From assembly GCF_028622875.1 (NCBI RefSeq), contig NZ_CP117709.1, positions 7,195,001 to 7,259,000 of the forward strand: DNA of 64,000 bases, read 5' to 3'. The translations under genes were made by a program, and so were the position numbers. The notes beneath the pieces were generated by a model. The model was not told where the DNA came from. It saw nothing but the letters and a program-made list of their open reading frames with translations, and searched no databases. This DNA is from Streptomyces sp. MMBL 11-1 (lineage in GTDB: Bacteria; Actinomycetota; Actinomycetes; Streptomycetales; Streptomycetaceae). Positions 27,414 to 33,469 of the stretch are shown piece by piece. Position 1 is the stretch's first letter, and the number at the start of each line of letters is the position of its first letter.

Positions 27414-29648
27414 CTACAGCTCCTTGATCCGGATGTCGCGGTACGAGATGACGTCGGTGACGCCGTGCACCTGGAGCCCGATGTAACCGGAGGCGAACCG
27501 CCGGCCGTCGGTGCCCGGGTCGTCGCCCCGCGGCGGCTCGAAGAGCTGGCCCCGGGTGTTGTCGAACTCGTTGATCAGGACACCGTTGCGGTAGATCTCG
27601 TAGTGCTGGTCCACCACCTTGATCTCGTAGTCGTTCCAGGTTCCCTTCGGTGTGACCCCGGCGCCGCCGAGCCCCACCCGGTCGAAGCCGTACACCGAAC
27701 CGGTCTTGTACATGTCGCCGTCCGGCCGGTCGTTGATCTGGATCTCATGGCCGTACTTGATGGCGACCCACTCCGGACGTGACTCCTCCGGGTGGTCGTG
27801 GACCTTCGGGAAGCGGACGAAGACCCCGCCGTTGGCGTTGCCCGAGCCCGGGGCGTCGTCCCGCCACTGGAGCTTGAGCGAGTAGTCGCCGTAGGCCCGG
27901 TTCGGCAGCCACAGCATGCCCATCCCGTCCACCGTGGTGGAGCTGGTGATGGAGCCCTCCTCCTCGTTCAGCTCGAACTTGCCGCCGCCCACGTGGCTCC
28001 ATTTGGCGAGCGAGGCCGCCGTGCCGTCGAAGAGCTTGGTGTAGCCCTCGACCTGGCCCGGCTTCCCGATGCCCGACTCCTTGGCGGCCTGGTAGATCGC
28101 CCGGCGCTCACGCCGGTCGATGACGCCGTCGGTCCTCAACTTGTCGAGCACCGTCGTCACGTGCTTGAGGAACAGCGCGTGCGAGGACCAGTCCTTCTCG
28201 TCCTCGATCAGTTCGTTGATCGTGCAGCGGTTACGGGTGATCCGGTTCGGGACGCCCGTGTCGACCGTGCCGACGAAGACGGTGTGCCGCTCGTCGAACT
28301 CCGCGCAGTTCGGCGCGGGAACCCCACCGCCCTGGGCGATGGTGAACGACACCTTCTTCGCCTCGGAGGTGTTGCCCGCCTTGTCCGTCGCCCGGTGGGC
28401 GATGGAGTGGTAGCCGACCCGGTCGACGATCACCGGAGCGGTGTACGCCAGATAGGGACCGCCGTCGAGGGAGTACTCGACCTTGTCCACGCCCGAGTCG
28501 TCATCGGTCGCCGAGACGGCGGCCTTGGCGCTGGTGATGAACGCCCCGTCGCTGTTCTTGTCGCCCTCCACCTTCACCGAGGTCTCCGGAGCCGTCCGGT
28601 CCTGGGACGGCGGCTCGACCACGGTGAAGTCGACGGCCTTCCCGTCCGCCACGTTGCCCGACCGGTCGGTGGCCCGGTAGCGGACCTGGTGCTCGCCGAG
28701 CTCGTGGACCATCACCGGTGCGGTGTACGGCTGCCAGGCGCCGTCCGCGCCGAGCGCGTACTCGATGGTGTTGACGCCGGACCCGGTGTCGGACGCGGTC
28801 ACGGTGACCGTGGCCATCCCCAGGTACGCGCCCGCGTCGTCCTTCTCGCCCGAGACGGTCGCCGAGGTCTCCGGCGGCGTCGTGTCGTCGGTCGGCGGCG
28901 CGGCGACCGCGAAGTCGACGGACTTCTCCGCCGCCACATTGCCCGCCTTGTCGGTGGCCCGGTAGCGGACCGTGTGGTCGCCGACCTCGTTCACCACGAC
29001 GGGCGTGGTGTAGGGCTGCCACGCGCCGTCCGCCCCGAGGGCGAACTCGACGGTGTCGACGCCGGAGCCCGTGTCGGTGGCCTCGACGGCGACGGTGGCC
29101 TGGCCGATGTAGGCGCCGTCGCCGTTCTGGTCGCCGTCGACCTTCGCCGAGGTCGCGGGGGCCTCGGTGTCCTCGCCGCTGCCCTCGGTGACGGTCAGGA
29201 TGCCCTGCATCATGCCGTGGCCCGGGATCGTGCAGTGGTAGAAGTACCGGCCGGGCGACAGCGTGACCTCCACGCTGTGCTTGCCGCCCTCGGCGTCGCC
29301 GGGGTTGGCCAGGATGTTCAGCTGGACGTCGTTGTTGAACTCCGGGTCCGACACGCCGAACGTCAGCGTGTGCGGCATGCTCGTCGTGTTCCCGGTGGCC
29401 GTGCTGTTCTCGAAGACGATGGTCGCCCGGCCGGCCACCGCCGTCTTCGGCGCGGACAGGTAGCGGTCGATCGGGTCGCCCGCGGTCCAGGTCAGCACCT
29501 GGTCGGCGGCAGCGGCGGGAGCGTCGTCCCCCTTGCCGTACGCGGCCGTCGAGGTCAGGCCGAGGACCATCAGGAGGGAGGCCAGCAGGGCCACCCAGAA
29601 GCTCGGCGGACGGTGCCGCCCGCGTGTCAGGAGCGAGTGGTGTCTCAC
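27414..29648 (-). CDS. secreted cupredoxin, OmpL47 repeats and DUF1080 sugar hydrolase
   Basis: A 744-aa exported multidomain protein. Signal sequence ~1-38. A plastocyanin/azurin-like domain at ~45-150 has type-1 copper ligands visible as PHTLTF (His) and FYHCTIPGHGMMQG (Cys, His, Met). Three ~90-residue OmpL47/bacterial-Ig-like repeats follow, each with PPETSATVSG...GSGVDTVEFALGADGAWQPYT...RYRATDKAGN. After a Cys-bearing linker, residues ~560-744 are a DUF1080/3-keto-disaccharide hydrolase jelly roll (GYTKLFDGTAASLAKWSHVGGG... EWVAIKYGHEIQINDRPDGD... GYIGLQVHG). GTG 29648 overlaps the upstream ThuA-dehydrogenase stop by 4 nt, so both are made together. Likely an extracellular sugar-oxidation partner. 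Confidence 0.88.
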   Translation of the reverse strand: MRHHSLLTRGRHRPPSFWVALLASLLMVLGLTSTAAYGKGDDAPAAAADQVLTWTAGDPIDRYLSAPKTAVAGRATIVFENSTATGNTTSMPHTLTFGVSDPEFNNDVQLNILANPGDAEGGKHSVEVTLSPGRYFYHCTIPGHGMMQGILTVTEGSGEDTEAPATSAKVDGDQNGDGAYIGQATVAVEATDTGSGVDTVEFALGADGAWQPYTTPVVVNEVGDHTVRYRATDKAGNVAAEKSVDFAVAAPPTDDTTPPETSATVSGEKDDAGAYLGMATVTVTASDTGSGVNTIEYALGADGAWQPYTAPVMVHELGEHQVRYRATDRSGNVADGKAVDFTVVEPPSQDRTAPETSVKVEGDKNSDGAFITSAKAAVSATDDDSGVDKVEYSLDGGPYLAYTAPVIVDRVGYHSIAHRATDKAGNTSEAKKVSFTIAQGGGVPAPNCAEFDERHTVFVGTVDTGVPNRITRNRCTINELIEDEKDWSSHALFLKHVTTVLDKLRTDGVIDRRERRAIYQAAKESGIGKPGQVEGYTKLFDGTAASLAKWSHVGGGKFELNEEEGSITSSTTVDGMGMLWLPNRAYGDYSLKLQWRDDAPGSGNANGGVFVRFPKVHDHPEESRPEWVAIKYGHEIQINDRPDGDMYKTGSVYGFDRVGLGGAGVTPKGTWNDYEIKVVDQHYEIYRNGVLINEFDNTRGQLFEPPRGDDPGTDGRRFASGYIGLQVHGVTDVISYRDIRIKEL

Positions 29649-32419: not shown

Positions 32420-33469
32420 ATGGACCGAAGGACCTTCAGCCGGCGGATGCTGGTCGGGGGCGCAGCCGCGGCCGCGACCGGGGTGACATCGTTGTCGCTC
32501 GGGGCGGTGGAGGCGCGCTCGGCCGAGAACCCGCCGCGTACGGCCCCGGCCGGCGGAGTGGTGCGCCGACTCAGGATGTACGCCGAGAAGTTGCCGAACG
32601 GCGAGCTGGGTTACGGCTTCGAGAAGGGCAAGGCCTCGATCCCCGGCCCCCTCATCGAGCTGAACGAGGGCGACACGGTCCACATCGAGTTCGAGAACCT
32701 CACCGATGTCGACGCCAGCCTCCACGTCCACGGCGTCGACTACGACATCGCCAACGACGGCACCCGGATGAACAGGAGTCACGTCGAGCCCGGCGGCACC
32801 CGGACGTACACCTGGCGCACCCACGCCCCGGGCCTCCGCAAGGACGGCACCTACGAGCCGGGCAGCGCGGGCTACTGGCACTACCACGACCACGTCGTCG
32901 GCACGGATCACGGCACCGGCGGCATCCGCAAGGGGCTGTACGGGCCGGTCGTCGTGCGCCGCAAGGGCGACATCCTGCCCGACCAGACCTGCACGGTCGT
33001 CTTCAACGACATGATGATCAACAACAAGACGGCCCACAACAGCGTCAACTTCGAGGCCACGGTGGGTGACCGGCTCGAATTCGTGATGATCACGCACGGC
33101 GAGTACTACCACACCTTCCATATCCACGGTCACCGCTGGGCGGACAACCGGACCGGCATCCTCACCGGCCCCGACGACCCGAGCCGGGTCATCGACAACA
33201 AGATCTGTGGCCCCGCGGACTCCTTCGGCCTCCAGATCATCGCGGGCGAACGCGTGGGCGCGGGCGCGTGGATGTACCACTGCCACGTCCAGAGTCACTC
33301 CGACATGGGGATGGCGGGGCTGCTGCTGATCAAGAAACCCGACGGCACGATCCCGGGCTACGAGCCCCACCATGCGGCGGGCGGCGCGGAGAAGAAGGCC
33401 GAGGAGAAGAGCGGCACGAAGAGCGCCGAGGAGAAGGCCGGGACGGGCGCGGGGGAGCACCGGCACTGA
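32420..33469 (+). CDS. two-domain (SLAC-type) laccase
   Basis: A 349-aa secreted multicopper oxidase of the small two-domain class, active as a trimer. Tat signal MDRRTFSRRMLVGGAAAAATG. Copper motifs are complete: SLHVHGVDY (~103-111) and WHYHDHVVGTDHG in domain 1; YHTFHIHGHRW and MYHCHVQSHSDMGM (type-1 Cys with adjacent His pair) in domain 2. It oxidises phenols and other donors with reduction of O2 to water. Residues after ~325 are a charged Lys/Glu-rich tail. From memory it matches S. coelicolor SLAC. It is divergent from the ThuA/cupredoxin operon, suggesting shared redox function. Confidence 0.95.
   Translation: MDRRTFSRRMLVGGAAAAATGVTSLSLGAVEARSAENPPRTAPAGGVVRRLRMYAEKLPNGELGYGFEKGKASIPGPLIELNEGDTVHIEFENLTDVDASLHVHGVDYDIANDGTRMNRSHVEPGGTRTYTWRTHAPGLRKDGTYEPGSAGYWHYHDHVVGTDHGTGGIRKGLYGPVVVRRKGDILPDQTCTVVFNDMMINNKTAHNSVNFEATVGDRLEFVMITHGEYYHTFHIHGHRWADNRTGILTGPDDPSRVIDNKICGPADSFGLQIIAGERVGAGAWMYHCHVQSHSDMGMAGLLLIKKPDGTIPGYEPHHAAGGAEKKAEEKSGTKSAEEKAGTGAGEHRH

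Follow-up and report, generated by a model that had tools for sequence, protein, structure and literature searches.

In fungi, cellobiose or pyranose dehydrogenase together with laccase offers a parallel in concept: a dehydrogenase acting on sugar outside the cell, a small carrier of electrons, and a laccase. The fungal carrier is a heme cytochrome in the place that a cupredoxin holds here, and the fungal parts are not known to be encoded as an operon. Here we describe a locus of three genes in a 64,000-nucleotide stretch of the genome of Streptomyces sp. MMBL 11-1 (contig NZ_CP117709.1, positions 7,195,001 to 7,259,000; hereafter the window), encoding a two-domain laccase, a protein with ThuA and GSDH domains (ThuA-GSDH) and a protein that joins a predicted cupredoxin to a DUF1080 domain (cupredoxin-DUF1080). 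All of these protein families have been described before. Searches of open-licence papers turned up no account of the three as a system, in keeping with the first-pass annotation of this DNA, which knew of no described system of this composition.

Bacterial pathways offer partial parallels. The Caulobacter LacABC/DUF1080 lactose 3-dehydrogenase pathway likewise oxidises sugar outside the cytoplasm, after which a DUF1080 protein is proposed to hydrolyse the keto-glycoside, but its dehydrogenase is a different one (LacABC), and the excerpted text of the source names no laccase, cupredoxin or GSDH protein (PMC9007349). Operons for the oxidation, elimination, hydration and reduction of levoglucosan and O-glycosides also proceed through 3-keto intermediates; the excerpts of the two reports list four enzymes, none of them a laccase or a cupredoxin (PMC7676230, PMC10628242), whereas the module in the window is predicted to be secreted. 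The laccase SLAC of S. coelicolor (PDB 3cg8) belongs to the same family as the window laccase over its whole length; in the literature excerpts it figures as an isolated enzyme, whereas the window laccase is a member of a conserved gene set. The roles assigned to Streptomyces laccases are described as speculation in the portion of PMC7036934 that deals with them.

We read the locus, with slightly less than even confidence, as an oxidative module that is secreted, responds to sugar and acts on glycosides outside the cell, in which electrons would pass through the cupredoxin to the laccase, under the control of a ROK regulator. Below we present the conservation of the gene set, the features of its proteins and a putative operator that it shares with a sugar cluster, and weigh other explanations. 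Genomes and loci are referred to by our own G and L numbers.

A conserved set of three genes in Streptomyces

The locus is laid out as follows.

29645..32149, minus strand: ThuA-GSDH gene; likely start ATG 32149, 834 aa (amino acids); reading frame open to GTG 32161
27414..29648, minus strand: cupredoxin-DUF1080 gene; GTG start, 744 aa
29645..29648, minus strand: overlap GTGA, 4 nucleotides (nt), of the ThuA-GSDH stop (TGA) and the cupredoxin-DUF1080 start (GTG)
32420..33469, plus strand: two-domain laccase (SLAC type) gene; ATG 32420, 349 aa

The laccase and ThuA-GSDH genes are divergent, with 270 base pairs (bp) between their two likely ATG starts. The first-pass annotation had described this spacing, the 4-nt overlap of the other two frames, the gene order and the domains, and Pfam matches, coordinates and translation agree with it.

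The three genes were surveyed in 150 Streptomyces genomes, with match thresholds on the expect value (E) of E ≤ 1e-60 for laccase and E ≤ 1e-150 for ThuA-GSDH. Only the best first-look candidates per genome were scored (7 for cupredoxin-DUF1080, 13 for laccase and 6 for ThuA-GSDH), so that a gene missing from the counts may still be present, and rows matching the DUF1080 domain alone of other proteins were dropped from the cupredoxin-DUF1080 count. All co-occurrence counts given here are raw, uncorrected for the relatedness of the genomes. Laccase was found in 95 genomes, ThuA-GSDH in 92, cupredoxin-DUF1080 in 93 and all three in 91. Laccase and ThuA-GSDH are divergent neighbours in 91/91 of the latter, with a gap of 112-420 bp (median 190) between their matches, and on the strength of this adjacency we rejected the explanation that the genes are neighbours by chance. 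The arrangement that the first-pass annotation had singled out for a conservation check is thus widespread in the genus. ThuA-GSDH and cupredoxin-DUF1080 are same-strand neighbours in 91 of the 92 genomes with both; in the exception, G120, each of the two matches sits at a contig end or close to one. No laccase was seen in G073, where the contig stops about 300 bp beyond ThuA-GSDH.

The gene set and its domain arrangements beyond Streptomyces

A class-wide sample of 394 genomes was searched, with the best two ThuA-GSDH and best four laccase candidates scored per genome. ThuA-GSDH matches (E ≤ 1e-60) occurred in 81 genomes, 48 of them with orthologs as defined by a cut of E < 1e-220, which was placed at a wide gap in the E values; laccase occurred in 49. 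All 48 ortholog genomes have a laccase within 6 kb, and they account for 48 of the 49 laccase genomes, so that the laccase is co-conserved with ThuA-GSDH; a lack of such co-conservation was one of the grounds on which the first-pass annotation would have counted its reading as refuted. Among the remaining 33 genomes, whose weaker rows were treated as paralogs, a laccase was present in G165 only. Eight laccase matches away from the gene set fall in four genomes.

A scan of named genomes for ThuA-GSDH gave a best 80 loci, all from actinomycetes by name. At the 65 loci matching by at least 54%, laccase was present in 63 and cupredoxin in 61; at the 15 loci matching by 36-41%, neither was found within about 6 kb (0/15 for each). 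Among the 65, cupredoxin was not found at L158, L165, L167 and L180, of which L167 and L180 end at contig ends. Hosts of the 65 loci include Streptomyces, Actinacidiphila, Micromonospora, Asanoa, Virgisporangium, Promicromonospora, Cellulosimicrobium, Georgenia, Jiangella, Saccharomonospora, Amycolatopsis and Streptosporangium. We rejected an artefact of one lineage, since the set is present in several actinomycete families with differing gene orders.

Outside Streptomyces the domains are distributed differently. In 12 non-Streptomyces loci (L040-L051), ThuA-GSDH and DUF1080 are found in one protein of 1,345-1,417 aa (1,159 aa in L045, where the protein ends at the contig end), with the cupredoxin and repeats on a separate protein. 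Laccase and ThuA-GSDH share a strand in 9 of the 12 and diverge in L040, L042 and L043. Pfam analysis of L041 gave ThuA interrupted by an F5/8C domain, then GSDH, PKD and DUF1080, followed by a cupredoxin-repeat protein without DUF1080. In L047 the laccase open reading frame (ORF) overlaps the next ORF by 4 nt, given its first start. In L162, L175 and L177, from Asanoa and Micromonospora, cupredoxin and DUF1080 matches stand ahead of laccase and ThuA-GSDH. DUF1080 therefore switches partner inside the set, and this argues strongly for a joint function of the parts.

Two further observations concern the 12 non-Streptomyces loci. L042 and L043 carry a tandem pair of laccase genes beside the set, and the stretch of OmpL47-like repeats that follows the cupredoxin seems variable in length across L040-L051 (ORFs of 648 to 1,125 aa).

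The laccase and the cupredoxin-DUF1080 protein

Comparison of the laccase with SLAC gave a score of 578.8 bits, with ORF residues 33-381 aligned to residues 1-343 of 3cg8. Pfam matches were to PF07731 and PF07732, and the translation has the His-rich copper motifs HVH, HYHDH, HTFHIHGH and HCHVQSH. The signal RRTFSRR is twin-arginine-like by eye. Many solved structures exist for Streptomyces two-domain laccases.

The cupredoxin-DUF1080 protein, whose closest listed homolog is from Streptomyces anulatus (96%), consists of a signal region, a cupredoxin (about 48-155), three OmpL47/Ig-like repeats and a DUF1080/PF06439 domain (535-742), the last covering the whole profile (1-187 of 187; E 8.1e-33, 114.5 bits). 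The repeats between cupredoxin and DUF1080 do not appear in the first-pass annotation. Pfam did not call the cupredoxin in the window protein itself; one relative gave a PF00127 call (23.2 bits against a cut-off of 21.2), and the precomputed annotations of many listed orthologs include this domain. The type-1 copper site of His, Cys-x4-His and Met that the first-pass annotation had noted corresponds to H93, C139-x4-H144 and M147. These ligands are invariant in 39/39 aligned cupredoxin domains, in an alignment that excluded loci with the best query match outside the cupredoxin part (including L043, L044 and L045). Such a His-Cys-His-Met set characterises electron carriers, and by this set the domain is predicted to bind copper in a type-1 site.

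The structure model of this protein has a mean predicted local distance difference test (pLDDT) score of 74.6, with the DUF1080 stretches 615-633, 639-664 and 698-719 below 50. Its DUF1080 part resembles the 3-keto-glycoside eliminase/hydratases 9fbe and 8rr2 and the 3-keto-2-hydroxy-glucal hydratases 8tda and 8v31, with target template-modelling (TM) scores of 0.53-0.59. The excerpted text of PMC9007349 also places an endo-xanthanase/lichenase in the DUF1080/PF06439 family.

The ThuA-GSDH protein and its cofactor

ThuA-GSDH matched PF06283 (ThuA; E 8.2e-58) and PF07995 (GSDH; E 2.9e-25, 89.7 bits), and its N-terminus, judged by eye, suggests that it is secreted. The model is poor (pLDDT 57.7, 22 close sequences) and its fold matches are supportive only; for the GSDH domain these are the propellers 5min, 1qbi and 3a9g, with soluble glucose dehydrogenase (sGDH) and aldose sugar dehydrogenase (ASD) among the top. 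Residues H470, R571 and N572 of the GSDH domain are invariant in 11/11 diverse relatives and align with catalytic or cofactor-binding residues of sGDH. H470 is preceded by the pair C468-C469, invariant in a 22-sequence alignment and present in 10 of the 11 diverse relatives (exception L057); a vicinal Cys pair also lies close to the cofactor of methanol dehydrogenase. A very weak match to TIGR02604, a profile of PVC-type heme-binding proteins (21.1 bits, cut-off 122.2), gives a hint only that electron-carrier partners may recur.

The first-pass annotation had named this protein a pyrroloquinoline quinone (PQQ) sugar dehydrogenase. PQQ synthesis was judged by PqqE (TIGR02109) alone, in 20 Streptomyces genomes with the triad, 10 without it and 14 control genomes. 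PqqE exceeded the cut-off in 2/20 triad genomes, the source genome (G000) not among them, and in 3/10 non-triad genomes, and matches weaker than the cut-off occurred in all 30 Streptomyces tested and in all 14 controls. The five Streptomyces above the cut-off are G003, G031, G054, G087 and G093, from which it appears that some Streptomyces may make PQQ; PQQ from outside could also be taken up by a host. In sGDH the PQQ-binding R-x-R is R406 and R408. The R-x-R of ASD 2ism (in GRLRE) aligns with N784-L-M786 of ThuA-GSDH, in a segment that scores -1.0 bits, and a rough alignment found RLR in the canonical ASD L199 of G000, the one gene recovered as a control out of three canonical GSDH genes in this genome. 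All 22 orthologs aligned have N784 and M786, and M786 is likewise unchanged across the 11 diverse relatives. The PQQ part of the first-pass label is not supported, with PqqE below the cut-off in 18/20 triad genomes and the R-x-R seemingly replaced in a weak alignment.

The GSDH domain of the window accordingly shares with sGDH and ASD a propeller fold (by a weak model) and the aligned His, Arg and Asn residues. It differs from them in its ThuA fusion, its CCH motif, an R-x-R that is apparently replaced, and its occurrence in hosts most of which, among those tested, have no PqqE over the cut-off.

A putative operator shared with a sugar cluster

Alignment of the divergent intergenic region from 21 Streptomyces (20 and the window) revealed near-invariant blocks amid variable sequence, a putative operator being one of them.

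32298..32318, no strand assigned: putative shared operator TTTGTCC-N7-GGATAAA, an inverted repeat between the divergent genes
32244..32249, minus strand: candidate -10 TAGCTT facing ThuA-GSDH, a conserved block in the 21-sequence alignment
32334..32339, plus strand: candidate -10 TACGGT facing laccase, a conserved block in the 21-sequence alignment

The candidate -35 for ThuA-GSDH is TTGGCG-like in relatives and TTGGCC in the window. Given the candidate -10 facing laccase, the putative operator would lie at about the -35 region of the laccase promoter.

In G000 (assembly of 8.5 Mb, 5 contigs), the operator pattern at up to one mismatch occurs in three places and a reversed control pattern in none. 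The exact copy is that of the triad locus. A copy with one mismatch (C1:246418) lies about 80 bp before a gene for a secreted GSDH-PKD-CBM6-ricin-lectin protein, which adjoins a ThuA-DUF1080-ricin-lectin gene; the pair occupies L039:5663-10338 (G000:C1:~241662-246337). The third, also with one mismatch (C1:7100285), precedes by about 100 bp the ROK regulator gene that heads a cluster (L087:9408-18001 and L038:4909-8826; G000:C1:~7100407-7111825), in which there follow genes for an ATP-binding cassette (ABC) ATPase, a permease, a sugar-binding protein, a Gfo/Idh enzyme, a xylose-isomerase-like TIM barrel and, last, a 1,305-aa GSDH-PKD-CBM6-ThuA-DUF1080 protein. The Gfo/Idh enzyme is closest to levoglucosan dehydrogenase (375 bits, under the 650 cut-off), and this enzyme and the TIM barrel are what the ROK cluster has in common with the levoglucosan and O-glycoside operons. 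Five matches with two mismatches in G000, TTCGTCCTGAGCCAGGATCAA, resemble the beginning of 16S ribosomal RNA genes and were set aside; a sixth lies at C1:6187231.

Because the operator precedes both the cluster of the ROK gene and sugar ABC transporter and a second GSDH/ThuA-DUF1080 pair, it supports a co-regulated extracellular keto-glycoside system. The ROK cluster and the triad locus probably belong to a single regulon, and the candidate binder of the putative operator is the ROK protein. The link to 3-keto sugars that the first-pass annotation had drawn from the ThuA and DUF1080 families is strengthened by this shared site, common to a levoglucosan-dehydrogenase-like cluster, and by the DUF1080 fold matches.

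The operator was also analyzed in three sets of loci, which overlap in species and are not independent. With GGANAAA allowed, 44 of 45 named Streptomyces-type loci have it, 34 of them exactly and 10 at one mismatch, and the single exception, L122, is likewise without laccase; of 900 dinucleotide shuffles, none reached one mismatch and two reached two mismatches. It lies upstream of laccase in 14/14 further triad loci (5 exact, 7 with one and 2 with two mismatches), and was found at none of four loci where a laccase stands apart from the other genes (those of G058, G116 and G147, and that of the second laccase in G144). Among 30 pattern-fetched loci from other genomes, 12 have it before a ROK gene, 3 at GSDH-ThuA-DUF1080 genes and 8 at the triad. 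The ROK gene lies roughly 100-130 bp downstream of the operator in G000 and in these 12. The pattern has at least one match in 135/150 genomes, many of them without the triad.

In the window, the triad is preceded by a LigD primase gene and a gene for a 354-aa protein (26335-27399, plus strand), which adjoins the LigD primase gene and has no Pfam match. In G116 and G147 (L035, L036), the LigD primase gene and a gene for a homolog of the 354-aa protein (75% and 74% identity) are followed directly by the laccase gene.

Discussion

In the mechanism that we propose, ThuA-GSDH would oxidise, or prepare, a sugar or glycoside outside the cell, and electrons would pass from it to the type-1 copper of the cupredoxin and on to the laccase, which would reduce O2 to water. 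The DUF1080 domain would cleave the keto-glycoside by elimination and hydration, and the co-regulated ABC transporter would import the products, to be processed by the levoglucosan-dehydrogenase-like Gfo/Idh and TIM-barrel enzymes. In Streptomyces, the ROK regulator would control both loci through TTTGTCC-N7-GGATAAA. A more specific version, which we regard as doubtful, is an all-copper secreted chain in which a GSDH-type enzyme with a new, non-PQQ cofactor and a cupredoxin-keto-glycoside lyase fusion feed the laccase as terminal oxidase, with a protein rather than a phenol as the laccase donor and ROK as the switch.

Several observations weigh against the proposed mechanism. PQQ is doubtful as the cofactor of ThuA-GSDH, and with PqqE below the cut-off in most triad genomes and the Arg pair seemingly replaced, the GSDH domain may not be a quinoprotein; the GSDH-like fold group also contains a lyase (7esn) and hedgehog-interacting protein. 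The laccase was not found at L122 and L158 among the 65 close loci. It occurs without the other two genes in 3/150 Streptomyces, elsewhere in the genome in G058 and at the same locus in G116 and G147. In the latter pair the flanking genes match those of the window, which suggests that ThuA-GSDH and cupredoxin-DUF1080 were lost there and the laccase retained at a seemingly ancestral locus; this is evidence counter to strict dependence. G048 carries adjoining fragments of laccase and DUF1080, likely the relic of a deletion. As to the operator, 7 of the 30 pattern-fetched loci are unrelated, each with one mismatch, and L040-L051 hold one site only (L040, two mismatches), from which it appears that control differs in those hosts.

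The main rival, which we consider unlikely and which retains the sugar part of our reading, is a cycle of aryl glycosides and phenols, in which the sugar enzymes would deglycosylate plant phenolic glycosides, the laccase would act on the freed phenols, and phenoxyl radicals or quinones, not the cupredoxin alone, would return electrons from the sugar enzyme. SLAC acts on phenolics, e.g. plant phenolic acids and kaempferol, in the excerpted text of PMC3918160, and excerpts of PMC10628242 and PMC9007349 describe oxidation-based deglycosylation of phlorizin and salicin, respectively. The operator that joins the loci fits such a cycle as well, but the cycle alone leaves the invariant type-1 copper ligands and the cupredoxin-DUF1080 fusion unexplained. 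It is also conceivable, though improbable in our view, that there is no electron chain, the GSDH domain being a lyase or a binding propeller, the cupredoxin delivering or storing copper for the laccase, and the laccase being merely co-regulated. The PqqE result in 18/20 triad genomes, the apparently missing Arg pair, the lyase 7esn and the three genomes with laccase alone speak for this explanation, while the invariance of H470, R571 and N572 in 11 relatives, in alignment with sGDH residues, and a ligand set typical of electron carriers speak against it. Least probable, and very unlikely in our view, is that the module remodels a surface or spore-coat glycan of its own producer in development instead of serving in feeding. 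The repeat region could anchor such a module to the wall, but the operator is common to a sugar ABC transporter and catabolic enzymes, pointing to uptake and use.

The conserved company of the laccase in Streptomyces and several related soil bacteria, and the DNA site it has in common with other loci in Streptomyces, suggest a function for an enzyme that has no agreed natural role. Because the gene usually travels with two predicted secreted, sugar-active proteins, and in Streptomyces the DNA site is common to the promoter of a sugar regulator, this role is directly testable. If our reading of a secreted oxidative module is true, it would add a GSDH subfamily of open cofactor and a copper-only way of linking the oxidation of sugars outside the cell to O2.

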